From positions 1 through 64,000 of the forward strand of contig JAMWFC010000028.1 of NCBI GenBank assembly GCA_027475525.1: DNA of 64,000 nt. The letters run 5' to 3'. How positions within the stretch are numbered: the stretch's first letter is position 1; every line of letters begins with the position of its first letter. This DNA is from Macrolepiota albuminosa. Its lineage: Eukaryota; Basidiomycota; Agaricomycetes; Agaricales; Agaricaceae. Position numbers and translations under genes: made by a program. This document shows positions 1,834 through 38,798 of the stretch, one piece after another. The notes below the pieces were generated by a model, which was not told where the DNA came from, searched no databases, and saw nothing but the letters and a program-made list of their open reading frames with translations.

Positions 1834-3072
1834 CGACCCGACACCGCCGAACCCTCCCCGACCGCCTCCGCCACCCCCAGCTGAACCCTGAGGACGACCC
1901 CCAGGCCCTCCACCCCCACCACTCCCTGCGTGGAGACCCGGGCCCCCTCCTGGCAGGAACGAACCCCCTTGGGACAACGGGCCTCCCGGGCGTGGACCCC
2001 CAGGTGAGCCACCCGGAGGAGGACCTCCCGGCGGGTGGGGTCCCGCCCTTGGTGCTTTTCCTCCTCAAGGAGGGGGGGGTAACCATTACTACTATTATTA
2101 CAATGCTGGCCCCCCTCCCCGTAACGCTGCCGGACCGGACGACGCTCGCGACGCCCTCGCCCGCGAAGGACGACTGGACATCCAAAAGCCCAACGCTTTC
2201 ACGGGCCGGGACCCCCGAAAATGGCGTACCTTCCTCACTCAGTGTCTCAATACATTCCAGGCAAAGCCGCTCACGTTTCAGGTTGACAGCTCCCGGGTGG
2301 CCTTTGCCGCGTCGTACCTCCAGGGGATCGCCTTCGATCACTACACGGCCCTCATCCAGTTCGACCCCAACAACCCGGCACTCACTCGCTGGCAAGCCTT
2401 CGTCGACGAGTTCTCCGGGAAATTCGGGATATACGATACCGTGGCCGAGGCCGAGGACAACCTCTTCAACCTTCAGATGCGCTCTGAAGAACGTTTCACT
2501 ACCTTCATCGTACGTTTTGAAAAGGAAGCTTACGAGACAGGTTGGAATTACAGCGCCCTCCGGTACGCCCTCCCACAACGTATCAAGGACGTCCTCCGAC
2601 TCGCCCCAAAACAACCCTCCTACGACGGATACAAGGCCCTCGTCATGCAGATTGACCAACGCTACTGGGAAGACCGCAGCGAGTATTCGAATTCCCGACC
2701 CCCCTGGAACCCTAGAGGAGGACCCCCTTGGCCCTCCGGCGAAGCCCCCAACCCCCAAGGTCGGAACCCTGGTCCCCCCGCGTTCCCTGGCGGCCGACCC
2801 CCGGTGAGCCGCGGCCCGCCCAATGCTAACCCCGGCAGCGGCGCCCGCCCCCAGGCCCAACTCAACGCCGCCGTAGCCGCCCACGACCCGGACAACGCGC
2901 CAAGCCCCGAGGAACCCCCGGAAGACCCCGAAAACTTCGACTTCGACGACGAACGAGACGAAGAGGCCCTCCGGGCCAACCGGCTTCAGAAGAAGGGATG
3001 ACCCTGGATCGAAGTCCCGACGGATGTGCAGGAACAACGGAGAAGGGAGAGTGTCTGCATACTCTGCGGTGA

Positions 3073-6000
3073 GAAAGACCATTTCATCTCCGAGTGTCCC
3101 AAACGACAGGTCATGGGACGTGCCACCTGGACCTTCGAAGGGGAGGACGCCACCTACAAGTATTCGGAAAACGACCCGGCGATTTAGACCCGGAAGACGC
3201 CCTAAATCGCGGAATCGACCCCGACGTCTTCTCCGCCCCGGTCTCACACCTTCGCTCTACGGCACTCATACAGGACACCCTCACGGCTTACCTACCCTCC
3301 CACTCTTCGCACTCCCTCCTCCTCAAAACCCGCCTCACCCCCTCCGGAACTCCCCTCAACACCCTCGTCGACAGTGGCGCCACCGACAACTTCATCGATG
3401 AAGCATGGTCTACCTTCGCCCCGGAACCCGCCCAGCGACTCCCGGTCCCGGTACGACTCTGCCTCTTTGACGGAGACGCCTCTACAGCGGGGGACATCAC
3501 CCACTTCGTGCGTATGCCCGTTACCTTCGCCAACGGACAGACTCACAACCTCCGGATGTTGATAACAAAACTCCACCCTTCCGCACCCCTGGTCTTAGGA
3601 CTCCCGTGGCTCCGGGACACTAACCCCCGCATCGATTGGCGACACCTCACCCTTTGCCTGACCCGGGACCCGACCCCCGACAACCAGCAACTCCCCTTCG
3701 ACATTCCCCACTCCTCAAACCCAGCCCCGAAGGACCCCCCGGACGAGCCCTCACCAACCCCCGGACTCCAATCCCGCTCGTCCCAATCCTTCGTCATCAA
3801 TGCCAGGCTGGACGGCACCCCGGGACCGATATCGGCCCTTATCGACAGCGGAGCCACCGGGGTTTTCATCAGCGACGCTCTCGACCTCCCCCACGACTCC
3901 CTCGACCAGCCCCTCCGCCTGCAACGCCTCGACGGCACCCCCTCCTCCTCCGGCCCCATCCAAAGGTCTCACTCGGGACGCGTGACCCTGGACAACAACT
4001 ACGAGTTCACTTCCGACTTCCTGGTCATGCGACTTCACGAATCAACCCCGATGGTGCTGGGGCTACCCTGGCTGCACGACACGAATCCCGACATCGATTG
4101 GAGGACGCTCACCATGACCTTCCCGGGGCCCGAAGACCACCCCTCGACCGCCGTGCACCTCCGGGCTCTAGGAAGCGACCCGACGCCCGACACCCCCGGG
4201 ACGACTGCCGCGCCCCCCACGCATGCACCACCCCCGCCCATCCGAGACCGCAAGGCCCCCGATCGACCCCCAAACATTCCTCGGAACAAGTACAAAGGGC
4301 CGAACTACCCGGGCCAGTCTCAGATGCACTTCAAACCCGCTCCAGCCGACACACCCGCGACCCCGGCTGACCCGAGCGCTCTCGACATCAGGATCATTGG
4401 AGCAGCCCCCTTCGCCCGCCTCATGAAGGATGGAACTCCCACGTTCCAGCTCCACACCTCGCCAGCCCTCCCGGAAGAGCACCTACGAGGAGACGCTATT
4501 CCCCCGGAGAAGAAAACCGAGGAGCAGATCCTCCGAGAAGTAGTTCCCCCGGAGTACCATGAGTTCGCTGACGTGTTCTCCGAAGGAGACGCCAAGGAGA
4601 TTCCCCCTCATCGCCCCTACGACCATACGATTGACCTCGAGGAAGGAGTTGCCCCCCCCCTTTGGCAAGGTGTACAACATGTCGGAAGTCGAGCTCCGGG
4701 CCCTCAAGGACTACCTCAACGAAATGCTCGGTAAGGGATTCATCCGACCCTCCGCCTCCGCCGCCGGAGCCCCGGTTCTATTCGCCAAGAAGAAGGACGG
4801 CTCCTCGGTAAGGGATTCATCCGACCCTCCGCCTCCGCCGCCGGAGCCCCGGTTCTATTCGCCAAGAAGAAGGACGGCTCACTCCAACTCTGTGTCGACT
4901 ACCGGGGACTCAACAAGATCACCAAGAAGAACCGCTACCCGCTCCCGCTCATCGGCGATCTGGTCGATCGACTCCGCAGTGCCAAGGTCTACACGAAAAT
5001 CGACCTCCGCTCCGGTTACAACAACGTCCGCATCGCCCCAGGACACGAGTGGAAAACCGCGTTCCGCACGCGGTATGGTCTGTTTGAGTACCTTGTGATG
5101 CCTTTCGGAATGACTAACTCCCCCGCCACGTTCCAATACTTCATGAACGACATCTTCCATGACATGAGCGACGTCTTCGTGATAGTCTACCTGGACGACA
5201 TCCTCATCTATTCCGACTCGCCGGAGGATCACCAGAAGCACGTCTGGCAAGTCCTCGAACGCCTCCGGGAGCACAACCTCCACGCCAAGCCCGAGAAGTG
5301 TTCGTTCCATACGGAAGAGGTTGAGTATCTTGGCGTCATAGTATCCCCGAATGGCGTTCGCAGAAACCCCTCAACCGGCTCACGCGTAAGGACATCGCCT
5401 GGAACTGGGACAGTAAGTGCCAGAGCGTCTTTAACCTGCTTAAGGAGGCTTTCACAGTCGCCCCCGTACTCCGGCACTACGACCCGGCCCTCCCGATCAT
5501 CCTAGAATGCGACGCCTCCGATTACGCCATTGCCGGGATTCTCTCGCAGATGGAATCTGACGGTGGGGAGCCCCGGCCAGTCGCCTTCTACACCCGGTCC
5601 ATGATCGACGCCGAGCTCAATTACGACATTTACGACAAGGAGCTCCTCGCCATCGTCGAAGCCTTCAAACAATGGCGAGCCTATCTCGAGGGAGCCCGGC
5701 ACCGGATCCAGGTCTATTCGGATCATAATAACCTGCAGTACTTCACCACGACCAAGCAACTCAGTCGACGGCAGGCCCGATGGTCCGAGATCCTCTCGGA
5801 GTACGACTTCATGATCCAATACCGCCCGGGACGACTTGGCGCCAAGCCCGACGCCATCACCCGCCGTCCGGACGTCTACCCCAAGAAGTCGTTTGAGGCG
5901 GAACGTAATGCGTTCAATCATCGCGTGGTGATCCCTCCCAAACATTTGAATGCCTTACTGATCTTAAACGAGGAAGGGACCCTGAGTCAGATTCGCCGCG

Positions 6001-7448
6001 CCCCCCGAGACAAGTACTTCACCGATCACGACCCCCGCAACCCCCCTGATGGAACCGACCGGGACCCCGCCTTCTCCCTGTCCCCCGACGAAAAACTCCT
6101 CCTCCGGGACGGCCGCATCTACGTCCCGGATCACGCCCAACTTCGCTACGACGTCCTCCGTCAACACCACGACCACAAGCTCCGGGGACATCCTGGAATA
6201 CGTAAGACCCTCCAGCTCATCTCCCGGACTTACTTTTGGCCAGGGTTGAAGAAGGACGTGACCCGTTACATTCGATCATGCGAGCCCTGCCTCCGGGCCA
6301 AGGTCCCCCGACACCGACCGTATGGACTCCTGAAACCTCTGCCGGTCGGACGACGCCCCTGGTCCTCAATATCTCTGGACTACATCGTCGAGCTCCCGGA
6401 ATCTGAAGGGTTCGATGCCATTCTCGTCGTTGTGTGCAGGCTAACCAAACAGGGCATCTTCCTACCCTGCCACACCACGGATACCGCCCTGGACTTCGCC
6501 CGGCTGTTCCTCGAGCACGTCTTCGCCAAGCATGGTCTCCCGGACGACATCGTCTCCGACCGGGGCCCCCTCTTCGTGTCCAAGTTTTGGACTTCCCTGT
6601 GTAAGGCACTTGAAGTAAAGACTAACCTCTCTACCGCCTACCACCCCGAAACCAACGGTCAAACCGAAAGGGTCAACCAGTCCCTTGAGCAGTACCTCCG
6701 GCTGTACGTCAACTACTTGCAGGACGACTGGCGCGCCGAGCTCCCCCTGGCCGAGTTCACGTACAACAACACGCTGCACTCTGCCACCGGGGTATCGCCC
6801 TTCTTTGCCAACAAGGGATACCACCCTTGACTGACGCTCTCGCTCCGGGACATCCCGTTGCACGCCGCCCATGAGGTCGCCCAGGATCTCCAGTCTCTTC
6901 ACAAATTCCTCCGGGAAGAAATCGACACCGCGAACCAGGCCTATGCGAAACACGCCAACCGGAAACGGGAAGACACCCCCGACTGGACCCCCGGGACAAA
7001 GGTATGGTTAGATCGACGCCACCTCTGCACCCGCCGGCCCTCCCCAAAACTCGATCACAAGCGCCTCGGCCCGTTCAAGATTCTGAAGAAGGTCTCATCC
7101 CACGCCTACAAGATCGAGCTCCCCCCGGGACTTAAGGGGCTGCACCTGGTATTCCACGTCCGCCTCCTGGAACAACACCCCCCGGATCCCTTCCCCAAAC
7201 GGCGACCCGAACCCCCTCCCCCGGTCGAGGTCGAGGACGAGTACTACTACGAGGTCGAAGACATCCTCGACTCCCGGAACATTCGTGGACGACCCCACTT
7301 CCTCGTACGATGGAAGGGATATGGCCCAGAGGACGACACTTGGGAGCCGCGACGAAACCTCGAAGGCGCCCTCAACAAGCTCCGGGACTTCCAGCAACGG
7401 CACCCGGGAAGCGACTCTCCCGGGCGTAGGACTCACAGACGGCAGTAG
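3073..7448 (+). pseudogene. pol of chromovirus: two retropepsins, RT, RNase H, integrase, chromodomain
   Basis: The polyprotein order is protease, RT, RNase H, integrase, chromodomain. Two retropepsin-like domains occur in tandem: LVDSGATDNF near 3366 and LIDSGATGVF near 3840, each followed by a VLGLPWL flap-region motif. RT has YLDD at 5188-5199. Integrase has an HHCC finger (6165-6300), catalytic Asp residues in SLDY and SDRG, and Glu in NGQTERVN. A chromodomain follows the integrase (about 7245-7400, [17 protein letters not shown]), which typically directs integration to methylated-histone chromatin. Breaks: one extra C in the C-run at 4651-4659; a 77-bp duplication at 4727-4880; a deletion near 5370 that joins the RT end (VSPNG) directly to sequence just before RNase H; and TGA at 6828-6830 where CGA is expected. 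Removing the 77-bp repeat rejoins the RT frame; the other lesions remain. Confidence 0.88.
4727..4880. repeat. 77-bp tandem duplication in RT
   Basis: Copies at 4727 and 4804, offset 77, exact. Removing one rejoins the RT frame. Confidence 0.92.
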
Positions 7449-7707: not shown

Positions 7708-9618
7708 CTAGAGCTGGGGCCCCGAGCCACCCTCACCCTCTCCCCCCCTCGGCCAACCCCGGAAGCCTTCCCCCATTCCCCCTGGACCCAGCTCCCGCCA
7801 CACTTCTTCGGCCAACACGTCCCAGGATGGAAGCGGCTCGCCCTCGTCCAGTACGCGCTCGAACCAGGATCCCGGGGCAGGCACGTTCCTTCGCCGGTGG
7901 GCACCCACCAGCCGCCCCAGGAGATCGAGACCGCGTTCCACCCCGGGGGTCGTCAACTCTGGGCGTTGCCCCTCCTGCAACGCAGCCAGTGCCGCGGCGG
8001 CCCCGTCCAGGAGCGAGCGGTGCTCCCGGGCCCAGCCTGGAGACGTCAGCAAAGGGGACAAGTGATGACAGGGGACTCACTCAACGAGGCCATGCGCGCG
8101 ATCACCACATCGCGGCGCAGCCCCTCCACCAGCTCCTGCCCCGGGGGGACCCTCTCTGGGATCCCCACTCCCTGCCCCAACCTGGCTCGCAGCGCCTCCA
8201 GCTCCGCCTCCGCCTCTCCCCGGGCGACCCTGGCCTCCTCCAGGTCCCGGCGAATCCCCTCCTCCCGATCCCCCTCCGGAACCCTCCCGGCCGCCACTTC
8301 CTCCCTCATCTCCTCCCCGCGACTCCCTTCGGCCTGTTCCCGCGCGACCTCGGCGTCGCCTGCCAGGAGCCCCCTGGACAAAGGAGAGAATGTTGCTGGG
8401 GACAGGCGCGGGGGCGAAACCGGAGACGGGGTCTCCGAGGGCAAGCGCGCCCTCTTGGAGGGCCCCATGTTGCTGGGGACAGGCGCGGGGGCGAAACCGG
8501 AGACGGGGTCTCCGAGGGCAAGCGCGCCCTCTTGGAGGGCCCCGGAGAGGGACTGGGCGACGCCCGCCGCTTCCCCTTGTCCAGGTGCCCCCCCTGCCCC
8601 CGGGCAACAGACCGAGGGGCCCGGCACGTGATCAACACCACGGGCCGGCCCCGGCCCCCCACCCGGACTACCCCCCGACTCCCCGATCCCCCACTGGACA
8701 CCTCTGCGGGCGCTGCAGGCCCCTCCCCCACTGGCTCCACCGGCTCCCCTGCCGGCTCCGCCACCCAATCACGCTCCTCAACCCCCATCCTCCGGATAAT
8801 TCCCCCCAGCGGCCATCCCTGCTTCCGGGCGACAGAACGCGCCCTCCACAGCGCCGACACGGAACAGCGCTCGTGATTGAGGCGGCAAGCCTCGCACACG
8901 GCCGTGTCCCGGCGGGACGAGGGGCTCGGGACTTCAAAGGTGCAGAGCACCCCCCAGCGGGCGCAGTGCAAGCACTGCACCAAAGTCAGCAGTAGGGAAC
9001 CTAGGTAAGGGCGCAACTCACCGGACCGTTATTCACACACCAAGCGTGAGTGGGCAGTCCCCGGGGCCTCTTCAGGGCCTCCTCGAACAGCTCCTGCGTG
9101 GCATCCGCCCACGCGACACATTGGCCCTCCGGGACCTCTGCCACGGTCCCTATCGCCATCCGGGAGCGGCGGAAACAAGGGGCAGGCAATCTCGGGCGAG
9201 GAGGGGGCTGAGGACGGGGAGGGCGTACGGTCATCTGCACGAAAGTCGGCGTGGGGCGACTCGGAGAGGGCTCCGGGGGGGCGCTGGGGCCAGCCTCGGG
9301 AATTGACTCCGGGAGTCGGCTGGGACCCGCCTCCGGGGCCGGAACGTTGCGTTGTTCTGAAAAGGAAAGGTCAGTGGGGTAAACTCCGGGAGTCGGCTGG
9401 GACCCGCCTCCGGGGCCGGAACGTTGCGTTGTTCTGAAAAGGAAAGGTCAGTGGGGTAAGGGGTCAGCGCGGGAGTACTCACGTTGCTTGACGAGCGCCG
9501 CCACGCGCTCCCGGTCAAGGCGAGCCCAGTAACGCGCGTCCTGGGCTTCCCATGCCATGAGGGGTGCGACCTCGTTCGTTTGAGGGGGCGTCGGCGAATG
9601 CGTCGGTGTTCGCGACAT
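7708..9618 (-). CDS. Zn2Cys6-like protein gene carried antisense inside the retrotransposon
   Basis: The gene lies on the strand opposite to gag-pol, between pol and the 3' LTR. Exons deduced: 9618-9483, 9433-9022, 8974-8081 and 8036-7708. Introns are 49, 47 and 44 bp, all with GTGAGT donors and AG acceptors. Exons 2 and 3 each hold a 77-bp tandem duplication (9306-9459, 8391-8544). Dropping one copy of each makes every exon phase fit and gives an open frame of about 538 codons. Protein features: N-terminal THSPTPPQ region; WCVNNGP; a CX2CX6CX15CX2CX6C cluster (CLHCARWGVLC...CEACRLNHERC) that fits the spacing of fungal Zn(II)2Cys6 domains; a basic KGKRRASP/SKRARLPSE stretch like a nuclear signal; a Glu/Arg coiled coil; and a C-terminal REHRSLLDG...AHRRRN...PSW domain. 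It is homologous end to end with the gene at 13279-15410. DNA binding is inferred only. Confidence 0.8.
8391..8544. repeat. 77-bp tandem duplication in antisense gene exon 3
   Basis: Copies at 8391 and 8468, offset 77. Removing one fits the exon phase. Confidence 0.92.
9306..9459. repeat. 77-bp tandem duplication in antisense gene exon 2
   Basis: Copies at 9306 and 9383, offset 77. Removing one fits the exon phase. Confidence 0.92.
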
Positions 9619-9747
9619 AGTTGACTTTGATGGTAAAAATTTTTTTTTCGTTACGTGGCAGGGCAGGCGCCGGTTCCCATGCCCAGGTCCGGTCCAAACC
9701 TCCGGCTACGCGCGCCTCGGAGGGTCTCGGCGCTGAGGGGGGGGTGA

Positions 9748-9787
9748 TGTCACGACCCCTCCCCCCCGGAACCTCCCCGGGACATCC
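9748..9787 (+). repeat. Duplicated copy of the 3' LTR start
   Basis: A 77-bp unit spanning the polypurine tract and the first bases of the 3' LTR occurs twice (9711-9787 and 9788-9864). The LTR start TGTCACGACC is therefore present at both 9748 and 9825. Confidence 0.8.
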
Positions 9788-9811
9788 CGCGCCTCGGAGG
9801 GTCTCGGCGCT

Positions 9812-9824
9812 GAGGGGGGGGTGA
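9812..9824 (+). promoter_or_regulatory. Polypurine tract
   Basis: GAGGGGGGGGTGA lies directly before the LTR start TGTCACGACC, in the position where plus-strand synthesis is primed in LTR elements. It is also present 77 bp upstream through the duplication. Confidence 0.7.
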
Positions 9825-10199
9825 TGTCACGACCCCTCCCCCCCGGAACCTCCCCGGGACATCCCCGGAGCCCTGCCCGGGAACCCCTTCCGTCAATCCC
9901 ATAGCGCACCCCGCCCCCACAGCTACCGACGCCGCCATCACACGCATCAATGACCGCCATCAGCCAGCCCCCCGGGACCCCTGCATCACGGACCCCGGGA
10001 TCAACCGCCATCAACGATCGGATCACGCGGCTCACATCCGACCATCACGCATCACGCCCCACGCATCACGACTCCCTCCGCGCCAATTGATCACGCATCC
10101 CCACACGCGCGATCCCGGTATACAGTCCCTGGCCGCTACTCAATGACCCCCGGAACTCATCCCAGACACTCTGGAAGCCCGAGACACGACCCGTAGTAC

Positions 10200-10205
10200 T
10201 TATAG
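10200..10205 (+). promoter_or_regulatory. TATA-like element of LTR promoter
   Basis: TTATAG lies about 27 bp upstream of the self-primer sequence at 10229. That is the usual TATA-to-start distance, so transcripts would begin at or near the primer bases as the self-priming model requires. Inference from spacing. Confidence 0.5.
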
Positions 10206-10228
10206 TGTAGTTCTCCGCTGTATTCGCT

Positions 10229-10240
10229 AGTCTTGATATT
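10229..10240 (+). promoter_or_regulatory. Self-primer sequence in R
   Basis: AGTCTTGATATT is a 12-bp perfect complement of the site at 287-298. In the mRNA it would lie at or near the 5' end and could fold back to prime minus-strand synthesis, as in Tf1. Confidence 0.7.
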
Positions 10241-10402
10241 GCATAACTGTTACTTGGATATTGCGTGCCCTCTGTTTGACTGGTACGCCTTGTTTGGTAC
10301 GCTTCAACTGGCACGCCTTAGTATTCGCGTGCTATAAGTTTGGTACGCACTTCGCGACTCTTAAGTTACTAACTTGGTCTCGTCTTAGAACCTCCAGTTC
10401 AC

Positions 10403-10556
10403 GACTCGACCCCCTCTAACTCCCAGCCACTCTCACCCAAAACCCCCGGACTCTAGTCCCTTATCCCGGGATTACTCCTGACTCGACCCCCTCTAACTCC
10501 CAGCCACTCTCACCCAAAACCCCCGGACTCTAGTCCCTTATCCCGGGATTACTCCT
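10403..10556. repeat. 77-bp tandem duplication in 3' LTR
   Basis: Copies at 10403 and 10480, offset 77. Absent from the 5' LTR. Confidence 0.95.
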
Positions 10557-10680
10557 GTCCTTGTCTTGAACCCCGGAGTCCTTAGCCCCGGAGTTCCAGA
10601 CACCCGAGTATCCGTAGATCAAGTCTGCATCGTAAGGGCGTCGCTTTCCCGGAAAGCCCCCGATTCAGCGGAACCTGACA

Positions 10681-13278: not shown

Positions 13279-15410
13279 ATGTTGCGCCACTCTACCCCTA
13301 ACCGTTCGCCTACGCCACCCCAGCCTGGTGATAACTCAACTGCTTCATGGCTACGCTACGAGGAGCGCCGAGAAATATACGAGCGCCGTCTAGACGAGCA
13401 GCGGATAGCAGCCCTTTTCCAGCAGCGTAAGTAGTTTTCCGGCATGTCTGCGTACTCACCAGGCACGCCCTCCTCCCCCCCAGAGATGGCAGGCCGGTCT
13501 ATGGGATCAAGTTCATTGACACTGACATCCGACCCATTGGCACCAGAGAGGAGCACGCAGACAGCCGGTCCGAGCAGCTCAGTCCAATCAGCACCTGCTG
13601 CGAGCTCGTCGACGCATACTGAACAGCCTGTTCTCAGGCCCGGTCAGGTACGGCGAGTCCCGGCAACAAAGCGGATCCCTCAAGCCGATGTGACACCGGA
13701 GCAATTTGCCGCGGCCCAAAACCGGCACCGTGGCCCTCCCACCCTCAAGTGGTGTCAGAACAAGGGTCCTGTGAGTGTTCTCCTGGCCCGGTCGCGCGTC
13801 CAAACCATCACCAGTGCTCGTTATGCTCACGTCAAGGTGAACCATGCAAATTCGAGGCACCAGTGGCAAAATCTCGCAGGGATAATTCCGTGTGTGTTTC
13901 CTGTCGAGCCCGGCACGAGCGATGCTCCGTGGCTCAGGCATGGAAGGCATCTTGCATGAGCAAAGAACAGGGGTGGGACATGACCTGGGTGCTGAGCCAG
14001 TTGGCTAGTGCATCCAGATCGAGGGCCGAGGAGTCGGGTGGGGCACAGGCTGGGAGTTCATCGAGAGGAAGGAAGGCGAAGGCATCGACTACACAGCAGG
14101 ATAAGGGGAAGCGCAGAGCTTCACCTGCGTTGACGGAGGAAGCGCCGACGGCTCGGCATGATAAAGGAAAGCGCAGAGCATCGCCGGAGCCGTACTTCGG
14201 GGAGGCAAGGAATTCGGGTTCAATATTATTTAATCGCGCGCGCGGATACGCGAATACAAAGTCATCGAGTGCGGGTAATGTGCCCAGGTCAAAGGGCGAG
14301 GAGTCAAGTGGATCGCGGCTTGAGGGTTCATCGAAGGATGTGGGGTCGGTTGAGGTGCAGACTGAGGGTTCGTCGCAAGGAGGAAGGGTGGAAGCGTCGT
14401 CTCCGCAACAGGACAAAGGGAAGCGCCGAGCTTCGACCGAGTCGGTGGAGATAATAGGGTACAAGCGTGCGCGGAGGTCCCCAAGCTTGGACATGTCGGA
14501 TATCCGTGAAATCCCCCCGATACCTGCCCAATCGTCTATTGATGAGGAAACGCGCCAGCAGTTGCAAGAGGCCATGGCAAATGGGTACCGGGTAACATTA
14601 CAGCTGCACCACACGCGAGAGGATCTTCAGCGGGAACGACGCGCTCAGGAGGCCATGCGGGAAGAGAGGAATGCGGCTATTCGTGACAGGGACAGAGCAT
14701 TTGGAGACAGGGATGCCGCTTTAGTGGCACGCGTGGCTATCGAAGACGAGTTGGCTGGGTTGCGAGCGCGAGTAGAGAATATCGAGAATCGAGGGTCGGA
14801 CAATGCGGCACCCGGGGCGTCGGAGATAGAGGAGGTACAACAGGCGATACGGCGAGTGGAGGCGGCACAGCCACGGATTTTAAGGAGGAGGAACTGGCTG
14901 TTGAACGCGTTGGCGTCGTCCCATGAAGATGTTATGCGTAAGTGACCCTATGTCCCATACCATATACCTGATACATCTTCACGCCCAGGAATGGTGCGCG
15001 AGTACCGACTGTTATTGGACGGTAGTTCCTCGGTGTTCGCCCTCATCCAGCAAGGGCTGCCCCAGCAGATCCCACCAGAGATTACGCAAGGAATCGATCA
15101 GTTGGGAGGTCTGTTAGCAGCGCACCGACGCAGGAATGCAGTGACACCGGGAACTTGGATGGAAGTGGCAGCGGACGCTGGCCAGCCCATGCCAACATGG
15201 AATGAAATAGTCGTGATGTTGGTATCGACTTTAGAAGAAGAAATGACAACAGCGGAGGCGGGTGAAGCCGCAGTGATGGCAGCAATGACGGGAAGAGTGG
15301 CAACAGCGGAGATGGTTGAAGCGGCGATGGTCGAAGCGGAAGCAGCAGCGACGACGACCGTGGGAGAGACGGAGGAGGAAGATGAGGTTGGGAGGAGGCC
15401 CCTGTCGTAA
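13279..15410 (+). CDS. Zn2Cys6-like coiled-coil protein, free-standing homologue of the transposon antisense gene
   Basis: Four exons: 13279-13426, 13463-13770, 13815-14937 and 14989-15410. The introns are 36, 44 and 51 bp with GTAAGT/GTGAGT donors; all phases agree and give about 666 residues ending in TAA. Features in order: RSPTPPQ N-terminus; a Ser/Pro-rich region; WCQNKGP; the cluster CSLCSRQGEPC...CVSCRARHERC with spacing CX2CX6CX15CX2CX6C; three or more KGKRRASP-type basic repeats; a long Arg/Glu coiled coil (about 14520-14870); then the REYRLLLDG...AHRRRN...MPTW domain and a low-complexity Ala/Glu tail. The cluster spacing fits Zn(II)2Cys6 regulators, though the usual basic first loop is missing. 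No LTRs or pol are seen around it. It may be a host gene or a relic of another transposon copy. Function is not known. Confidence 0.8.
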
Positions 15411-18060: not shown

Positions 18061-18079
18061 CGGAACAAATGACGTTAAA

Positions 18080-18990
18080 AAGGGAAGACACTATTCCCAC
18101 ACATATATGTAACCGTACTAGTATCACATGACGTTAAAAAGTGAATATATTATTCCCACGCATCTCTGTAACCCCACACATATATGTAACCGTACTAGTA
18201 TCACATGACGTTAAAAAGTGAATATATTATTCCCACGCATCTCTGTAACTGTACAGACGTACAGTAGTATCACATGACATTAAAAAATGAAGACATTACT
18301 CCCACGCGTACATAGTCTACTGCTGACTAAGTAACCGTACAGACGAACGGTAGTATCACATGACATTAAAAATCGAAGACATTATTCCCACGCGTCTCTG
18401 TAACCGTACAGACGAACGGTAGTATCACATGACGTTAAAAATCGAAGACATTATTCCCACGCATTTCTGTAACCGTACAGACGTACGGTAGTATCACATG
18501 ACGTTAAAAAATGAAGACATTACTCCCACGCGTACATGGTCTACTGCTGACTAAGTAACCGTACAGACGAACGGTAGTATCACATGACGTTAAAAATCGA
18601 AGACATTATTCCCACGCATCTCTGTAACCGTGTAACCGTACAGACGAACGGTAGTATCACATGACGTTAAAAATCGAAGACATTATTCCCACGCATCTCT
18701 GTAACCGTGTTAAAAAGTGAAGACATTACTCCCACGCGTACATAGTTCACTACTGCTGACTAAGTAACCGTACAGACGAACGGTAGTATCACATGACGTT
18801 AAAAATCGAAGACATTATTCCCACGCTTACCNNNNNNNNNNNNNNNNNNNNNNNNNNNNNNNNNNNNNNNNNNNNNNNNNNNNNNNNNNNNNNNNNNNNN
18901 NNNNNNNNNNNNNNNNNNNNNNNNNNNNNNNGCAAAAATCGAAGACATTTTTCCCACACATAGTCCGCTGCACAGAAAAACCTCGATCTA
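18080..18990. repeat. Minisatellite with 69- and 86-bp units
   Basis: The core GTAGTATCACATGACGTTAA recurs at intervals of 69 or 86 bp. The longer unit carries an extra ACATAGTCTACTGCTGACTA-type segment. Each unit includes ACCGTACAGACGAACGGT or the variant with GTACGGT, whose arms ACCGTAC/GTACGGT can pair. Two intervals of exactly 77 bp (18100/18177, 18555/18632) probably come from assembly. The array is cut by an N gap at 18832-18931. Confidence 0.85.
18832..18931. other. Assembly gap (100 N)
   Basis: Exactly 100 N inside the minisatellite, so the true array length is unknown. Confidence 0.99.
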
Positions 18991-19581: not shown

Positions 19582-22500
19582 ATGAAATATGCAGACGACA
19601 ATGACAAGAAGCTCATTTTATGCCAGTGTACCTTTGCACAGTGTAAGGAAGAGATGATCTCAGACACTCAACGAGGGCATTTTGTTAACCTTTGCACTTA
19701 TAAAAAACATCAATCAAACAATAATACTGAGAAGATTTGATCGATGGTATCCACTAATCAGGTGGCTCAGGCAGCTCATGATGCTGAATTGTCAAGAGCA
19801 ATTGATAATCTCCCAATTGGCAACCTCAATTTGCACCTTGCTGCGATACAGCCATCGATTGCTGCTCCTGCACTAGACTCTCATTTTACTAGAATGAAAA
19901 AATTGGTTTTTCTACTTCATGAAATTGAGAATGGTCTCAAAACTCTGCATTGAGATATCAAGGCTGTTGGGAATGCCCCGACTGGAGCCAGCGACATTAA
20001 GCTGGCAGGCAATATCAAGGAACTAGGCAACCTCAAACAAGCTCTGGCAGAGGAATCAGCCAAGCTTCTTCCAATGGCAATGTCAAAGATTCTGGCTGTG
20101 GTCAAAGCGGGATATGGTCCACAGCCTTTTCGAAGTCATGATGCAGACATGGCAAGATGCCTTGGCGAGACGTATTGCTCAGGAGGATGCTTTAGCTGGG
20201 AGTAAGTTCAACACCGGTCAGTACCAGCAGATTCATGTGTTTCCTGATTATTGACAGATTATTGACAATTCCTCATAGGGGCACATTTCTTGCCCAGTCT
20301 TGTTGGAGTGGCAGCGTTTCTACAGGTGGTGATACTCATGGTTGCTGTTTGCCACATCACTTTCCACCTTTCTCGTCGAGGCACATACTGGTTATTCCAA
20401 ATGTGCGAAAAGCTTTTGGACATTGTCATGGAAGCTCTCCCTCATGCATTGACCACTCTGGGTTTGCACTTTTACAAAATGTTCCCTCATGACATTCGTG
20501 TTGCAATCAAGACTTTGCACCTGGAAGAGAAATCTGAGGTATATGCAGCCTGCCTAGCATGTCACTTGATTTACAGAGCAATCAAAGGCAAGAGTGGCGA
20601 AGATGATGGAAAGGATATATATGATGATATTCCAGTGTATCCAGAGTTGTAGTGCCAGGCATCATGGCAAGAAGTGTAAGGAGCTGCTTGTTTGCCCAAA
20701 ATCTGTTGGGCAACTGAATATCACTATATATGTCCCCATATGGCCCTATGTTCTTTTTGACTTCAAAGATTGGTTTGCAGGTTTACTGTCCCAACATGGT
20801 TATGAGAAAAAGATGGACCAAGCTTGGGAGAAGATGCGCGCTTCTGAAGGTGGGAAAATAACAGATATTTTTCAGGGCTGTGCAATTCGGGAGTTTATGG
20901 GGCCCAATGGCAAAACTCACTTTAGTCTCTCTGGCAACACAAATGCTGGTCATTATCTATTTTTGATTGGAGTGGATTTTTTCAATCCGCTGGGCAATAA
21001 GCAAGCTGGAAAGAAGATCTCTGTTGAAATGATTTCCGTTGCACGTCTTGTTCTACCTATAGAAGAATGGCACAAGCCTGAGAATCTCTACGTTCAGTTG
21101 ATTCCTGGTCTGCACGAGCCTTCTGTGGAGGTGGATGGTATCAACTCCTACCTGAAACCAATTGTCAACGCCTTCCTTGCATTTTGGGAAGGTGTTTGGT
21201 TTAGCCAGACTGCAGACCATCTCTATGGGCGATTGATTTTTTGTGCCATTATCCTCATTATCTGCGACCTCCTGATAGCATGGAAAGTTAGAGGCTTTAC
21301 TGCAATCAACCATAAATTGTTCTGTTCCCGATGCAAATGCTGCAGGTCTTTTCATTCCTACAATAATTTTGAACACAACGTTTGGGTTCTGCGTATCGAT
21401 GCTGACTATAGGCAAAAGGCAGAGAAATACATATCTGCTCCCTCTAAAGAAATTGGTAGAAAAATATGGTATACAATGGACTGAACTTCTCAGGTTGCCC
21501 TATTACAAGCCATCATCCTATCTCGTCATTAATCCCATGCATAACTTCTTTCTCGGTCTCATTAAGGAGCATTTTTGGAGCATTCTTGGTTACAACCCCA
21601 AAGGTAAAAAGAGTCGATGGAAAGAAGTTGTTTCACATAAAGCATTAATTGTAAAGATACCATTCACTTTTGATAACCCTGAGCCACAGGCAAAATTGTC
21701 TATGAAAGCTGCATGGTCACTCCTTCATTGGCTATTGGAACATATGGAATTCAGCGACAAGGATACTGCATTTGAAAGTGCGGTGAAAAAATGGGCTAAA
21801 CTTGCTTTACTGGCCTTGGTTTACATTGCCAGAGGTCTTCAATGTGAAATGCAATTTGGCGCAAAGCGACTTACAAGAGAGGAGTACTCATGAGCTATCG
21901 TAACTTGGGCACATGCTGACATTTTTCTTATTAAATGCAACTAACATTCTTTCGCAGAGAATGAAACAAGTCAAAACCAACACATATATAGAACCTGGAA
22001 ATGTGTTAACAGACAAAGAGATACATAGCATCAGAGATGATATGGATTATATCGTAAAGCCCTCCTGGGTAACTTCAGTTCCTCTTCTGTCAGGATCAAA
22101 GCCCAAGGCTGATGAATGGTGCACACTCGGTTGCTTAAATTTGCCAATCTTCTTGGTTTGGAAATGGTCAGATACCGAACACATGGAATTGCTGCATCTT
22201 ACCATGCTACTCATGACCGCAATTACCTTGGCAACCTCTCAAGTCACCAGTGAAGCACACTCCATACTATACATAAATCGCATGGTTGAATATCGGCGAG
22301 AACTCCAGAGAATATTTCCATTCTATGAGTATATTCCTAATCACCACATGGCTTTTCACATTTCAGAGTTCATAAAGCTCTATGGTCCTGTCCATGGATG
22401 GTGGGCCTTCCCATTTGAACATGTGATCGGTCAGTTGCGATGGATTTCAACCAATTATAAGAAATGTAAATCCTCTGCCTATTCTAGGTTGAGCTGATTC

Positions 22501-26459: not shown

Positions 26460-27839
26460 TCAGGTTGTATCACCTAAGCTCCACCTTATCTTGGATTTGA
26501 GGTTTCCCTTTGTCCACATATGACCTATGAGGTCATCCACAAACCATTCCTGGTTATTACCAGTTCCAAAGTCATACGGCTCCGGAGTTGCACAATTAGG
26601 GAAGAGCGCATCACTACTGGCCATATACGGTTGCAACAGCGACACATGGAACTTGGGAACTATCCTGCGCGCTTGCAGCGCATGGAGTAGTTCCAGCACG
26701 TAGTTAGACATGCTCGGCTCTGCCTCCAGGACCCTATATGGTCCAATCCACTTCGGACACAGCTTACTTGCCCTGCCTTTCAGCAGGTTCAAGTTCTTTG
26801 TCAATAGGTACACTAGGTTCCCTTTCTCGATGTCTGGGTCCTCACATCTGGAATTATTCACATGTTTGGTCTGCCATACACGCAATTCTATAATCACATC
26901 ATGGGCATCTGCCAAGTTCTCTAGCGCATTGCATGCAAACTGCTTTACTCCCACATGAATAGCTTTGTCAGTGCAAAGTTCACGAATCATGGATGGCATG
27001 TAGCCATTATTGAGTTCAAAGAGTGAATACCCTGTGGTTTCCGATATGCTCGCGTTTATCACAAATTCCACAAGTAGACATCTATCCACCCAGTCCTTTT
27101 GATCAGGACATACGAACGCTCGCAGTATTTGCGCAATATTTTTATTCACGTGCTTTGTTTGACCATCTGTTTGCAGATGAAACGACATCGACATGAGCAA
27201 CTTTGCTCCAAGCAGTTTGTGCAACTCCTTCCACCATTTGGAAGTAAACTTAGCATCTCAATTGCTTACAATCGAGCTTGGCAATCCATGGAGGCGCACT
27301 ATCTCCTTGAGATAGATCCACGACAAGTCCGACGCTGTCATGGTGGTTCTCACTGGAATGAGATGGACCATACTGGTTATTCTGCAGATCACTACCCAGA
27401 GGTAGTTAAAACCTTTCGACTCAGGAAATGGACTGATAAAGTCCATCCCAATCAAATCCCAGGGTTTGACTGGTATAGGTAGCAAATGAAGCTTTCCTGG
27501 TGGCTTCAATGTCAATATTTTTGACTGTTGACATAGCTTGCATGTCGAGCAGAATTGGCTCGTTTCTTTGGCCATTTGCGGCCACCAGTACCAGCGTCGC
27601 ACATAGTCCAGCATTTTCTAAGTTCTGAAGTGGCCCACTACTCTATGGGCCTGGTCCAGGATAGTTGTGATTAACAACCTCTCCTGGAGAATGCAGATGA
27701 CTTTGGACTCTGTGGGTCTGGTAAGGTAGACGAGCTGCTGCTCCACCTTGAAGCATGGAGGCGCCTGGATATTATTCACAATCTCCAAGAAGAAATTATC
27801 ATCTTTGTATCCATGCTGGATATGTGTGCGGAATTGCAC
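26460..27839 (-). pseudogene. Integrase of old Ty3 element, catalytic residues lost
   Basis: HHCC finger residues are visible (HRVVGHF, then CSTCKLC at about 27525-27545). The core has GMDFISPFPES with the first catalytic Asp. The second Asp is changed: the expected VSDRD reads VSN, stop, D near 27257. The catalytic Glu of the usual DGQTERVN motif is Lys (DGQTKHVN, near 27165). Both changes are G-to-A or C-to-T. The C-terminal part keeps the GPYRVLE and FHVSLLQPY motifs common after gypsy integrases. No chromodomain was found. A stop interrupts the frame near 27615. Confidence 0.83.
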
Positions 27840-28187
27840 ATTGCCTAAGTCAGCCGGTGCAGGTGTATGGTCCTATGACTCCAGCGCCTGCTGGAGCATC
27901 ATATCAGTACCTCTTGGAGGCACCCCTTGCCTCATCTCTTCACTTGGCTGAGGGACCTCATGATCCACCAGCACCTGGGCCTTGATATCGCAAGCTTCTC
28001 GCTGTTCATGCAGTTGCTTACTGCAAGGTGTTTCCTGTGCTCGCATGGCACATAGCTCAACCCTATGTTCCTTGATTTCATGGAACCTATGCAGGGGCAA
28101 GTCTTTGCCCTCTGGGTCAATACGTTTGTCCGCCTGGACATAGTCATGCGTGTCATGGATGTCATCTCGAGTATCACTCTTGAAATA

Positions 28188-28882
28188 TCAAGACAGGCAA
28201 TCCGCGACTTTGTTCAATTCACCTTTTACATAGGTGATGTCGAACTGATACCATGACATGTAGTCAATCCAGCGACATTGTTGCGGAGATAGGTGCACCT
28301 GAGTCTTGAAAAACTCTAGTGCTTTGTGATCTGTAATGATGTGGATCTTATATCCCATCAGTTTATCCTCCCATTTTAGGAGGGCTTCCAGGATAGCGAG
28401 TGTTTCTAACTCATGTACAGCATAATTTTGCTGGGCAGCAGTGAATTTACGGGCCACATTTTACCTTGGCCAAACATGGCCCCAACCCCAGTCTTCAATG
28501 TGTCACATATGAGCCATATGGGCTCGTCGATGCATGGATCAATTGGCCAGATGACTGGCATCTTTGCGCAAATGCGCTTAATCATCTCAAAGCACTGCTG
28601 ATGCAGCGGTCTCCAGTGAAAAGGGGACCTATTCTGGGTCATGGCCATAAGTAGCCCTGTGTATGCAGTGATGTCTGGCAAAAAGTTGCCAATATAGTTT
28701 ACAAGTCCAACGAATCATTGGATATCATTATATGTGTGTGGAGTACGCCACTCTCAAATTTGGTTGAGCTTATCCATGTCCGGGTGAATACCCTTCTTGT
28801 CAATAACATGACCGAGACAATCTATACTCTTTGCGAACAACTCACACTTCTTCCATTTGAGATAGAGGCTAGCCTCAGGTAG
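28188..28882 (-). pseudogene. RNase H and RT connection of old Ty3 element
   Basis: Codes for typical gypsy sequence: SPFHWRPLHQQCFEMIK, WLICDTLKTGVGAMFGQG, ALLKWEDKLMGYKIHIITDHKALEFF and DYMSWYQFDITYVKGELNKVADCLS. The frame has stops and is separated from the RT palm by the LTR-like insert at 28883-29400. Confidence 0.8.
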
Positions 28883-29400
28883 TGTCAGGGGACTCCTCAT
28901 TCCTTTCTTCTTTCACTCTTTATTTCTTCACTCTCCTTTCATTCACTTCCTTATTTCTTCTATCATTCTCTCATTTTGCTGTTACTACTTTTTCAACACT
29001 ATCTGTTAGTACTATTCTCAACCTTTGAGGTGCTCTGGTTCTTTAGCTATCACTCAGACAAGTGTGGGCCCTTCAGCACCGCTCCAGGCTGCTTAGATAA
29101 GCCGGAGTTTGCCTTTCTGACTTCTAAAGTCCGGAGTTTTCCTCCCTTGTTTGCACACTTGTTTGGTTAGTCAATTTTCGAGTTTTTAAGGTTTTGTTGT
29201 ACTGTACAGTTGTTTCCCACGCTTCAGAGGCCCCAGAAGCGTCCAACCTGGCATAGGGAATCCCCAGACTTGTTCTCTTTGGATCTCCCTCTGCCAGGTG
29301 AGTAGCTACCTTGATATTGTCAGTATATATTCTAATACACTTTGGATCTCCCTCTGCCAGCTGTGTGACTGAGCCACAGCCTCTAGAGGTCGCCCTTACA
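28883..29400. mobile_element. Solo LTR (older copy) inside the RT of the old Ty3 element
   Basis: 518 bp starting TGTCAGGGGACTCCTC and ending GTCGCCCTTACA. It is the same family as the solo LTR at 43694-44446 (which starts TGTAAGGG and ends CCCTTACA). It lies between the RT palm (HL near 29421, FERL near 29405) and the RT thumb (EASLYLKWKKCEL, near 28870), so it splits RT. The flanks are GGTAG and GAGTC, not an obvious target duplication. Confidence 0.75.
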
Positions 29401-30272
29401 GAGTCGTTCAAATATGACTCATAGGTGCTGCTCATGCTCCTCAATGGAATCAGAAAAGATGAATATATCGTCTAAGTAGACGTGCATAAACTTCCCGATT
29501 ACATCTTGGAAGATTGAGGTCATTAACCTCTGAAATGTCGCTGGTGCATTACAATCACCAATCTGCATGATGTTACTCATGAACGTCCCCATCAGGGATG
29601 AGAACAGCGTCTTCGGTATATCCTCTTCATGTATGCAAACCTGTTTGTACATGTCTGTTAGGTCAATTTTCAACCTATACTTTGCTGTCGCGACATCTTC
29701 ACGTATTACTTCCTGATCTGGAAGAGGTATTACATCTTTGACTGTGTTATCATTGCACTGTCACGCATCCAATGCAGTCCTCAATGTTCCATCCTTCTTG
29801 GGGATACAAAGTAAGGGTACAGCTTGCACCGCTGGTTGTGGTTCCCACCACTTTGCATTTATGTATCTATTTGTCTTTTCACAAAGTTGATCCTGTAGTG
29901 CTTGTGGGCAGCGAGGCAAATGATATTTGTACTGCTTGTTATCGTCAATGAGGTTGATCTCATGATTAACCTCCCACCACGGAGGAAGCTCTTCCTTTGT
30001 TCTGTTGACAATATCAGCAAACTCCCATTGCCATTGCTGGCGCAATCAAGGAATATCCTCCTCTGTAAGGCTCACAGCCTTACCTTTCCCTTTTACTATG
30101 CGTGCTATACGTGGCTGAACCTTTGGTTCAAATCGCTCCTGTAAGGCACGTACGTGCTCCTCTGTGAGATCTCCTGGGTTCAACCTTATGACAGGTTGTT
30201 TCTCCAACACTCTTGTCATACTCGACAACGACTGCATGCGTCTCGCTTTCAGCGAGAGTCCGTCAAATACAA
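29401..30272 (-). pseudogene. RT palm of old Ty3 element
   Basis: RT motifs in order: LLCIPKKDGTLRTALDA, KIDLTDMYKQVCIHEEDIPKT, NAPATFQRLMTSIFQD and MHVYLDDIFIFSDS (YLDD). TGA codons at 30046-30048, 29761-29763 and 29419-29421 stand where CGA would restore an expected residue. The protein continues upstream into the half at 38803-39265 across the nested insertion. Confidence 0.84.
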
Positions 30273-31182
30273 TGTAGTACTTGGTTGCAAGTAGTACTGA
30301 TAGTTCTGGGGCTTTCTTGAAGTCTTAGAAAGTGACCTCTAATCCACACTGGTGCTTGATGATAAAAACTTGATGTATTGGGTGCTTCACAGAATATCAA
30401 ATATCCTGATGGGCAGAAGAAGGTTCTCAATAAACTCCAGCCTAAGCAGTTCACTCCCTGGGAACCACCGAGCCTTTGTTTACCAATAGACTTCCAATGA
30501 GAGGTGTTCAATAAACTCTAGCCTAAGTGATTCACTCCCTGGGAACCACCGAGCCTTTGCCTATCAATTGCCTGGTTATTCTCTACTCTACTTGGACTAT
30601 TTATACTAATTTTCCAGTGCACAGACCACCAGATCACATGACTTTTTGCTCTTGACCTCCCAGCATTCCTGACCTAATTTGTTGTTCCATTTTCCATTTT
30701 GGTGATGCATGTTTCAGTGCCACCATTCCATTCATCTCTTCCTTCCTCCATTCAATGCATGTTTCAGTGCCACCATTCCATTCATCCCTCCCTTCCTCCA
30801 TTCAATGCATGTGCCACCATTCTATTCATCTCTTTTGACATCCCTCCATGCTTCTTTCCCTTTCCTCTTTCAGTCATATCAAATTGGGGATTGTCAGATC
30901 AGATCTTGATCTAGATCATCACAATTTGATCCCCTTTTGTCACCTCTGCCAGCTCCCATGCTTCTCCTCCCCATAACAGTGGTTGGACTATTGTTGAGTT
31001 GATAGCTTGAGCTGGTCCCTGCCCTTTGTTCTGTACTGTCTGTGTATTTATTGGGGTGTTTTTGGAGATATAATTTGTTGAGACTGCTACCAGGAGGCTT
31101 ACAGTTTTCAGCCCATAATTAAATGTTTATTTTGACTTCTGGTGCATGTTGTGTCCCTGACTGCTGGTACAGCATCGTATCA
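30273..31182 (-). repeat. 3' LTR of nested element
   Basis: 910 bp. Read on the minus strand it starts TGATACGATG and ends TACTACA. It matches 37889-38798 base for base as far as checked. It contains short internal repeats of the ATGCATGTTTCAGTGCCACC type at a 50-bp interval. Confidence 0.93.
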
Positions 31183-34300: not shown

Positions 34301-35170
34301 GAGGTACTCCAGAATGAGCTATAGTGACTTTGTTTAGGGGTTCTAAACTGTGCACAAGCCTTAGACTTTTCCCATCCTTCTTCAGAACAGCAAACCATTG
34401 TGATCTATATGAGGAGTTTGACCTCTCATAAACCCCTGCTTCCAACTTCCTCTTAATCTCCTTGCACAGGTCATTGTACTTCCCAGGAGGTATGGGTCTG
34501 TTTTTCAACACCCAAGGCTGGTGAGGTACTACTGGCATAACAACAGGTGGGAAGTATTCCTCTTTGAACTTCCCCTTCTGACTGTCATTCCATGCAAAGG
34601 CCTCATTCTGCTGCATCATCAGCTGGTGCAGCAACTTCCTCTCTTCTGGCCATAGAAACTCTCCTTCATGTGCTTGGTCAATAATCTGCTTGCACTCCTC
34701 TGTGTACCTCCCAGTAGGTCTGAATTCAGGTGGATGTGGACTCAAAGGTGGCATATCCTTTAAAGGATCACCAGTGATATTCCTCTCTATCCTGAACTCC
34801 TCTGGTGTAGTACCCAACACAGGTCTAACTTTCTTGGCAACAGGCTTATATTTCCCAAACACTTGTACAGTTTCCTCCTGGCTTTTCTCCCCCCCACTCT
34901 TTAACTCTTCAGGTAGGTAGCCTAGCTCTCCATTCAGGTAAGCTCCCAGCAACTGCCCTGTCCTTTCTCCTTCTCCTCCAGTAGCATGGTAAGCAGCCAA
35001 GTACACATCTCTGAGTTCTTGCTGCTCAAAACTCTTCTCCTTGACACAGTACCCCTTGATCCAGAAACCTTCCTCCTCACTCCCCTCTATCATTACTGCA
35101 GCCTCTCCTTGATCTGGTTGACACAGTACCCCTTGATCCAGAAACCTTCCTCCTCACTCCCCTCTATCAT
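31389..35170 (-). CDS. pol of nested element: RT, RNase H, integrase
   Basis: The long frame (over 1230 codons from 35093) holds RT with RSQWFAVLKKDGKSLRLVHSL, FQTPYGALRLVTLPMGWTN and YIDD near 34055. RNase H follows with AVDTSWMAVGFGIF and RELYGLMRALQ. Integrase has an HHCC finger (H-ALGHRG, CHACQ near 32470), then HLDTMHM, TDNAGQF and NGRIERPHW giving D,D and E about 34 residues apart. The C-terminal part has a RYWGPMVVL (GPY/F-like) motif and no chromodomain. The start is inside a 77-bp duplication. With one copy removed the frame reads into the -1 frame of the protease ORF just upstream, at the heptamer at 35218-35224. No internal stops. Confidence 0.92.
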
Positions 35171-35194
35171 TACTGCAGCCTCTCCTTGATCTGG
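35041..35194. repeat. 77-bp tandem duplication in pro/pol junction
   Basis: Copies at 35041-35117 and 35118-35194, offset exactly 77. They artificially separate the protease and pol frames. Confidence 0.9.
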
Positions 35195-35224
35195 TATCAA
35201 CTCCTCAAGGCTGAAGCTTTTCCC
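35184..35224 (-). promoter_or_regulatory. Predicted -1 frameshift site pro/pol
   Basis: In the protease frame the codons are TTG GGA AAA, giving the slippery heptamer G GGA AAA (35218-35224, minus strand). Seven bases later CCTTGA (35210-35205) can pair with TCAAGG (35189-35184), with a 15-base loop. A -1 slip reads into the pol frame; without slipping the ribosome meets TGA at 35197-35199. Heptamer, spacer and stem fit known -1 signals. Function is predicted, not shown. Confidence 0.65.
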
Positions 35225-37888: not shown

Positions 37889-38798
37889 TGTAGTACTTGG
37901 TTGCAAGTAGTACTGATAGTTCTGGGGCTTTCTTGAAGTCTTAGAAAGTGACCTCTAATCCACACTGGTGCTTGATGATAAAAACTTGATGTATTGGGTG
38001 CTTCACAGAATATCAAATATCCTGATGGGCAGAAGAAGGTTCTCAATAAACTCCAGCCTAAGCAGTTCACTCCCTGGGAACCACCGAGCCTTTGTTTACC
38101 AATAGACTTCCAATGAGAGGTGTTCAATAAACTCTAGCCTAAGTGATTCACTCCCTGGGAACCACCGAGCCTTTGCCTATCAATTGCCTGGTTATTCTCT
38201 ACTCTACTTGGACTATTTATACTAATTTTCCAGTGCACAGACCACCAGATCACATGACTTTTTGCTCTTGACCTCCCAGCATTCCTGACCTAATTTGTTG
38301 TTCCATTTTCCATTTTGGTGATGCATGTTTCAGTGCCACCATTCCATTCATCTCTTCCTTCCTCCATTCAATGCATGTTTCAGTGCCACCATTCCATTCA
38401 TCCCTCCCTTCCTCCATTCAATGCATGTGCCACCATTCTATTCATCTCTTTTGACATCCCTCCATGCTTCTTTCCCTTTCCTCTTTCAGTCATATCAAAT
38501 TGGGGATTGTCAGATCAGATCTTGATCTAGATCATCACAATTTGATCCCCTTTTGTCACCTCTGCCAGCTCCCATGCTTCTCCTCCCCATAACAGTGGTT
38601 GGACTATTGTTGAGTTGATAGCTTGAGCTGGTCCCTGCCCTTTGTTCTGTACTGTCTGTGTATTTATTGGGGTGTTTTTGGAGATATAATTTGTTGAGAC
38701 TGCTACCAGGAGGCTTACAGTTTTCAGCCCATAATTAAATGTTTATTTTGACTTCTGGTGCATGTTGTGTCCCTGACTGCTGGTACAGCATCGTATCA
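37889..38798 (-). repeat. 5' LTR of nested element
   Basis: 910 bp, matching 30273-31182. Followed on the minus strand by the primer binding site. Confidence 0.93.

Follow-up and report, generated by a model that had tools for sequence, protein, structure and literature searches.

Antisense gene between pol and the 3' LTR

The 64,000-nucleotide stretch of Macrolepiota albuminosa contig JAMWFC010000028.1 analysed here (hereafter the window, positions 1 to 64,000) contains a copy of a Ty3/gypsy chromovirus and, between the chromodomain end of its pol and its 3' long terminal repeat (LTR), a four-exon gene that could be read directly on the minus strand at 7708-9618. This gene lies antisense in nearly all copies of the element tested, keeps its three short introns, and occurs in at least two chromovirus subfamilies and in a third mobile repeat. 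Its start codon is placed about 130 bp from the start of the 3' LTR, and 260 bp separate its stop from the pol end. An initial annotation of this DNA had proposed four antisense exons separated by GTGAGT introns of 49, 47 and 44 bp, a structure that direct reading confirmed, and its estimate of about 538 codons agrees with three copies that are open as assembled (L038, L039 and L040), each encoding 538 amino acids.

Exon 1 (9483-9618) begins with the ATG at 9618 and is followed by intron 1 (9357-9482 as assembled, GTGAGT...TTTCAG), which measures 49 bp with a first acceptor and 126 bp with a second. Exon 2 (9022-9356) encodes a proline-rich linker and a basic patch and terminates in ..WCVNNGP. 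Intron 2 (8975-9021, 47 bp, GTGAGT..GTGCAG) leads to exon 3 (8081-8974), which holds the Cys cluster CX2CX6CX15CX2CX6C, the basic stretch KGKRRA..KRAR and a part that by eye appears coiled-coil-like, and intron 3 (8037-8080, 44 bp, GTGAGT..CTCCAG) precedes exon 4 with the stop codon (7708-8036), a conserved C-terminal part predicted to be helical. The proximal region upstream of the gene, between its start codon and the polypurine tract (9619-9747), is conserved in a 20-copy alignment. A candidate binding site picked by eye, CTCGGAGGGTCTCGG (a direct repeat of two CGG triplets, CGG-N7-CGG), is found here at about 9711-9747; it is retained in 18 of the 20 aligned copies, with variant forms in L057 and L060.

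The element carrying the gene showed Pfam matches to gag, two aspartyl protease stretches, reverse transcriptase, RNase H, integrase, an SH3-like part and a chromodomain. Protease, reverse transcriptase, RNase H and integrase follow one another in the order of a chromovirus, with the chromodomain at the integrase C-terminus, and TG..CA LTRs, a polypurine tract at the 3' LTR and insertions with differing flanks were also found. On the plus strand, the 5' LTR (1-285) is truncated by the contig start and differs from the 3' LTR by 3 mismatches in 285 positions. It is followed by gag (Retrotrans_gag, 1892-3001), the protease part of pol with its two aspartyl protease stretches (3073-4734), the reverse transcriptase part (4804-5505), the RNase H and integrase part (5328-6830), and the SH3-like integrase C-terminus with the chromodomain (6831-7448; Chromo, 7.5e-15). 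The 3' LTR, TGTCACGACC...ACCTGACA, occupies 9825-10680, with the polypurine tract GAGGGGGGGGTGA before it; a 77-bp duplication (9711-9864) generates a second 3' LTR start at 9748 and another (10403-10557) lies within the LTR. A query made from the first part of the 3' LTR returned pairs of matches about 10 kb apart, as expected of LTRs, and the genomic flanks beyond the LTR end differ among the copies read, L046 and L047 having one in common. Besides a 77-bp repeat (4727-4880), pol of the window copy contains an in-frame stop (6828-6830) and a change of frame between 5325 and 5505.

Occurrence in other copies of the element

The window's own genome (G000; 100.1 Mb, 129 contigs) was searched with 1 kb of the gene DNA, giving at least 77 matches (best 40 of 565 candidates scored). 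Twenty places were taken as copies for their resemblance to the gene and, together with the window, form a gene-selected set of 21. Exons 1 and 2 are matched in all 20, and so is exon 3, at least in part; the integrase-chromodomain end adjoins the gene in 19 of them and the LTR in 18. Because these copies had been picked by the gene, a second sample was picked by pol. The integrase-chromodomain query gave at least 150 places (best 150 of 2173 candidates scored) and the exon 3 query at least 152 matches (best 150 of 979 candidates scored), of which 150 rows were used for pairing. Among the matches listed, 76 of the 150 integrase places have an exon 3 row no more than 6 kb away. The gene is antisense and downstream in 74 of these, at 668-1252 bp in 70 and at 1616, 1971, 2159 and 5870 bp in the rest; in the two exceptions the gene match lies 3.9 kb upstream and 5.5 kb downstream of the integrase. 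Of the 74 integrase places for which no gene match was listed, every sixth was then inspected (13 places). One was L043, which carries the gene and was already in the set, and the 12 new places all carry it as well, 11 with exons 1-4 and one (L061) with just exons 3 and 4.

In this genome the gene regularly forms part of the element. The finding that would have spoken against the initial annotation, namely other copies lacking the gene, was not obtained, as nearly all copies tested carry it in antisense orientation, after the chromodomain and before the 3' LTR. A chance open reading frame was ruled out by the recurrence of the exons, splice sites and place in 32 other copies (in L061 partly) and by the frame control described below. 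In copies such as those on C1, C126, C43 and C122, identity is 84-93% over the 5' half of exon 3 (window 8472-8998) but only about 68-78% over the 3' part, a contrast that suggests recombination between copies.

Retention of the introns

Splice sites were surveyed in 33 copies (the 20 gene-selected copies, the 12 pol-selected ones and the window), that is, in 99 introns, of which 89 were readable and 10 unreadable. GT-AG borders were found in 88 of the 89 (intron 1, 30/31; intron 2, 30/30; intron 3, 28/28) and AT-AG in the remaining one. The donors are GTGAGT, GTAAGT and GTAGGT, with GTGAGC and ATGAGT seen once each, and the ATG start codon is present in 30 of 31 readable chromoviral copies. 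Intron loss was looked for in the same 33 copies and none of the 89 readable introns is missing. A gene in the sense orientation would lose its introns through spliced RNA, while the genomic RNA retains those of an antisense gene. The introns, being antisense to the genomic RNA, would thus escape splicing and survive retrotransposition, as the initial annotation had reasoned, and the absence of intronless copies agrees with this.

Selection on the gene

The ratio of nonsynonymous to synonymous substitution rates (dN/dS) was calculated on open blocks of the gene-selected copies only, in pairs that are not independent of each other. Its pairwise medians were 0.11 for exon 1, 0.25 for exon 2, 0.28 for exon 3 (8 copies, 23 pairs) and 0.20 for exon 4, far from the value near 1 that would have contradicted a retained function. 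In the gene frame, the ratio of the corresponding proportions of differences (pN/pS) was 0.17-0.34 and third positions took 51-69% of the changes. The other frames of the gene strand gave pN/pS values of 1.3-2.8 and those of the element strand 1.2-2.5, save frame 1 (0.24-0.54), which mirrors the codon positions of the gene. Coding on the sense strand was ruled out, since frames 0 and 2 have pN/pS above 1.1 and frame 1 follows the codon positions of the gene and is interrupted by stops. The gene is under purifying selection at the protein level, and the integrase is held more tightly still (median dN/dS 0.09, 12 copies).

These figures bear on an alternative in which the antisense RNA is itself the product that matters, pairing with the genomic RNA so that copy number is set by double-stranded RNA or interference. 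The transcript would cover roughly the last fifth of the genomic RNA, and the idea is discussed for plant elements in the available text of PMC7264820. However, selection acts on codons in the frame of the gene, and the start codon and splice sites are retained whereas the intron interiors are variable, which makes this alternative improbable.

Within the subfamily, distances between exon blocks correlate by rank with those of the LTR at 0.12-0.38 and with those of the integrase at 0.20-0.53. As the gene distances, exon 1 excepted, track the integrase more than the LTR, there was no sign of a binder co-evolving with its own LTR. The block with the Cys cluster correlates weakly with both LTR and integrase, which again suggests recombination between copies.

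Assembly repeats and integrity of the gene

Fifteen tandem arrays of period 77 were found in the window, 13 of them with 100% matches. Two perfect 77-bp tandem duplications fall inside the gene (8390-8543 and 9306-9459); neither occurs at its place in the 32 other copies, 15 of which have 77-bp pairs inside the gene at positions other than those of the window. These repeats are taken as assembly artefacts. Further 77-bp duplications can be seen at, for example, 4727, 35041 and 44096, a pattern as if contigs of a k=77 graph had been joined with the overlap left in, and a perfect 105-bp pair is placed at 56663-56872. The gene had been described as opening once its two repeats are removed. This holds for 8390-8543, which breaks the frame of exon 3, but not for 9306-9459: that duplication copies the acceptor of intron 1 together with the start of exon 2, so that the frame stays open through the second acceptor and only the intron is lengthened, to 126 bp.

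As assembled, 7 gene-selected copies out of 21 have a gene that is open throughout, and splicing six of them by script gives proteins of 538-556 amino acids; taken singly, exons 1, 2 and 4 are open in 20, 19 and 18 of the 21, respectively, and exon 3, as assembled, in 8. The earlier argument for a retained function, which set the open gene against the broken gag and pol beside it, is not supported, as many copies have a long open gag-pol of up to 1587 amino acids. It is also undercut by the stronger constraint on the integrase, by the gene being broken as assembled in all 12 pol-selected copies, and by the window gene itself, which deviates from the intact ones (e.g. CARWGVLC in place of CARRGVLC in L038 and L040).

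A second subfamily and a related gene in another repeat

A second chromovirus subfamily, represented by L065, has reverse transcriptase and RNase H-integrase pieces 84-89% identical to those of the window and an integrase end 70% identical. Its LTR side aligns with the window only up to the tract region. L065 carries pieces of the gene, also antisense, with 41-46% identity in exon 1, exon 4 and the 5' part of exon 3 and 30% in the 3' portion of the latter, about 43% overall; GT-AG candidates for introns 1 and 3 could be placed by eye at matching positions, and the donor of intron 2 is unclear. When the best 22 integrase places of this subfamily were paired by eye, 20 had a gene match on the opposite strand 1.2-1.4 kb downstream; C24:621028 and C110:1549707 had no gene match nearby among the matches listed. 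The presence of the gene in two subfamilies, at about 43% identity against 84-89% in pol, indicates that it is old in the lineage and has diverged faster than pol. Transduction can capture host genes (PMC7264820, available text), and a host gene could have been taken up recently by one element and be hitch-hiking with it. Such a recent capture was rejected, on the matches listed and with no search aimed at a single-copy host relative, and we consider it highly implausible, in view of the two subfamilies at this distance, the occurrence of the gene near 20 of the best 22 integrase places in the second and the constraint on its codons.

A related gene (gene 2) was found in the window at 13279-15410 on the plus strand. 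Its four exons are open and encode 666 amino acids, its introns of 36, 44 and 51 bp are at matching places, and its protein is 37% identical to that of L038. Gene 2 lies inside another mobile repeat, which runs from about 10955 to beyond 18060 and gave at least 46 matches with a DNA query (best 40 of 104 candidates scored); no pol was found near gene 2 within the window. Three copies only were compared, and they gave a pooled pN/pS of 0.72 with little divergence, one of them having a stop in exon 4; these values do not establish selection on gene 2. Outside the window's genome the only homologues among the matches found are the Termitomyces proteins P0001-P0003. As gene 2 is placed in a separate repeat with no pol found nearby in the window, mobile repeats of more than one kind carry this gene family.

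An origin compatible with a regulatory role, and one that we regard as quite possible, is that a chromovirus ancestor gained the gene from a gene 2-type repeat by insertion or recombination, or the reverse, the role being unchanged. The four exons of gene 2, its matching intron places, its share of the same invariant residues and the abundance of its pol-less repeat agree with such a transfer, whichever its direction. A more tentative extension, on the unlikely side in our estimate, is that a zinc-cluster-like antisense regulator forms a mobile module serving different element classes, namely chromoviruses, through LTR control like that of the retroviral protein HBZ (see below) or through escape from silencing, and a repeat devoid of pol.

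An array of related units of about 69/86 bp (AAAAATCGAAGACATTATTCCCACGC), interrupted by Ns, follows at 18066-18961, perhaps at the right-hand end of the repeat with gene 2. Further along the window, broken tnp2-like transposase frames are present on the plus strand at 20570-22497, with Pfam matches below the cut-off; from their likeness we take them to be of the CACTA/Plavaka type. Two more Gypsy-type pol regions lie on the minus strand (26460-29862 and 31389-37508), the second flanked by matching repeat arrays at 30705-30812 and 38321-38428 that are probably in its LTRs.

Features of the encoded protein

Alignment of six proteins (three chromoviral copies, gene 2 and Termitomyces P0001 and P0002) revealed seven invariant cysteines with the spacing C-X5-C-X2-C-X6-C-X15-C-X2-C-X6-C. 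A proline-rich linker region, the motifs RRD, HERCS and EQGW and a basic stretch, GKRRA..KRAR or similar, are also common to the six. The predicted model of the Cys region (predicted local distance difference test, pLDDT, 82.7; predicted template modelling score, pTM, 0.67) shows short helices at 2-7 and 28-32, each starting at a CXXC. The model of exon 4 is weaker (pLDDT 68.7, pTM 0.44) and has four helices.

Zn2Cys6 proteins have the spacing CX2CX6CX5-12CX2CX6-8C. Like the fungal Zn2Cys6 regulators (PF00172), the element protein has six cysteines arranged as CX2CX6C ... CX2CX6C with basic residues near the second, and a Zn_clus match is obtained at E values up to 1 in five of the six members; unlike them, it has a 15-residue linker, a seventh invariant cysteine and a score below the cut-off. 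The Zn2Cys6-like label of the initial annotation can thus be kept as regards the likeness of the Cys pattern, but not as regards the curated Pfam threshold, and the protein is best described as zinc-cluster-like and a non-member of PF00172. Its predicted features resemble those of a nuclear regulator, in line with the earlier suggestion that the gene may regulate the element or host silencing.

Proposed role

With moderate confidence, we consider that this is an accessory gene of the fungal chromovirus lineage whose product would be a nuclear regulator encoded by the element and made from its 3' LTR side. The regulatory role is suggested by an anatomy like that of the nuclear-acting antisense genes of human T-lymphotropic virus (HTLV), Grande and Retand. 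The antisense transcript, running towards pol, would start from a promoter in the roughly 130 bp beside the 3' LTR or inside the LTR, and would be spliced on its own strand; the sense genomic RNA, holding the introns as reverse complement only, would remain unspliced, and the introns would be kept in each cycle. Less certainly, the protein may enter the nucleus through its KGKRRA..KRAR stretch, bind DNA via the Cys cluster and dimerise via the coiled-coil-like part. It could then tune transcription from its own LTR or shield the element from host silencing, by analogy with the antisense proteins of delta-retroviruses.

Several observations weigh against this proposal. The promoter, splicing and translation of the antisense gene are themselves deduced from the DNA. 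The selection figures were obtained with copies that had been chosen because they resemble the gene. Among the 12 pol-selected copies, a set of more divergent ones, there is none with the gene open throughout as assembled (exons 1, 2, 3 and 4 are open in 10, 7, 1 and 11 of them, respectively), and 7 of them have 77-bp duplications in the gene; the lack of a fully open copy among these 12 does not fit the picture of every copy keeping the gene. Three of the four exon blocks track the integrase more than the LTR, the reverse being seen for exon 1, which adjoins the LTR. The Zn_clus scores (17.3 bits for the window piece, 15.5 for L038 and 17.1 for P0002) stay below the cut-off of 21, the Cys linker of 15 residues exceeds the Zn2Cys6 spacing while the remaining spacings fit, and a fold search with the Cys-region model found no solved relative.

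In a different scenario, the protein would work other than by transcription, steering integration, assisting nuclear import or countering chromatin silencing, with no binding to the LTR. Its basic stretches, its nuclear-type sequence and the constraint on the gene agree with it, no sign was seen, exon 1 aside, of the gene changing together with the LTR, and the fast divergence between subfamilies relative to pol is expected under conflict with host factors. Against it, the Cys cluster, with its predicted helix after each CXXC start, resembles a DNA-binding unit, and the chromodomain already serves targeting in chromoviruses. This scenario is in our view possible but rather doubtful.

Comparison with known systems

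Zhao et al. reportedly described in 2011 Boty-like LTR elements of Botrytis cinerea with an antisense gene, brtn. The initial annotation knew of no named chromovirus family with a gene such as the present one, which is mistaken as to kind: the available text of the sources describes a Boty gag-pol with a chromodomain (PMC4227169) and the antisense gene brtn between pol and the 3' LTR (PMC7264820; Boty-like elements also in PMC8365987). Boty thus has in common with the present element a fungal Ty3/gypsy host element, a chromodomain in gag-pol and an extra antisense gene in the same place. It differs in its ascomycete host and in that no zinc-cluster-like feature is mentioned for brtn in those texts. 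An additional open reading frame of unknown function is indicated in fungal and spikemoss Gypsy elements in a figure legend of PMC2864245, in whose main text the words antisense, opposite and reverse orientation are absent.

LTR elements are known to carry antisense accessory genes, whose function is undetermined (PMC7264820, PMC11963269, available text). The product of Grande (gene23) is nuclear, and RIRE2 and Retand encode a TRP28 domain predicted to bind DNA (same sources), a nuclear or putatively DNA-binding product being what they would have in common with the gene described here. In contrast, these are plant elements, Retand is non-chromoviral and TRP28 is a different domain; introns are not mentioned in the main text of either source.

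The comparison with the deltaretroviruses is one of mechanism only. HBZ of HTLV-1 is antisense, spliced and expressed from the 3' LTR, and its nuclear product reduces HTLV-1 expression; APH-3 and APH-4, likewise encoded by spliced antisense transcripts, suppress transcription driven by the 5' LTR (PMC10186651, available text). Like the present gene, HBZ and the APH genes (HTLV-1 to -4) are antisense; their splicing and their expression from the 3' LTR would be further features in common. Unlike the present gene, they belong to retroviruses, and a basic leucine zipper is present in HBZ and absent from the APH proteins; homology is not claimed.

No report of this gene, its exon structure, its zinc-cluster-like product or its sharing with a second mobile repeat was found among the results listed in searches of the open-licence literature. 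Its three conserved introns, codon-level selection, fully open copies and candidate DNA-binding cluster, together with at least 150 integrase places, make an HBZ-like role directly testable. The case shows a route by which intron-bearing genes can persist in retrotransposons, and it warns annotators that some zinc-cluster-like proteins of mushrooms may be retrotransposon genes. With Grande, Retand, brtn of Boty and HBZ of HTLV, antisense accessory genes are a kind already known, including in a fungal chromovirus, and the present gene is a new variant of it.
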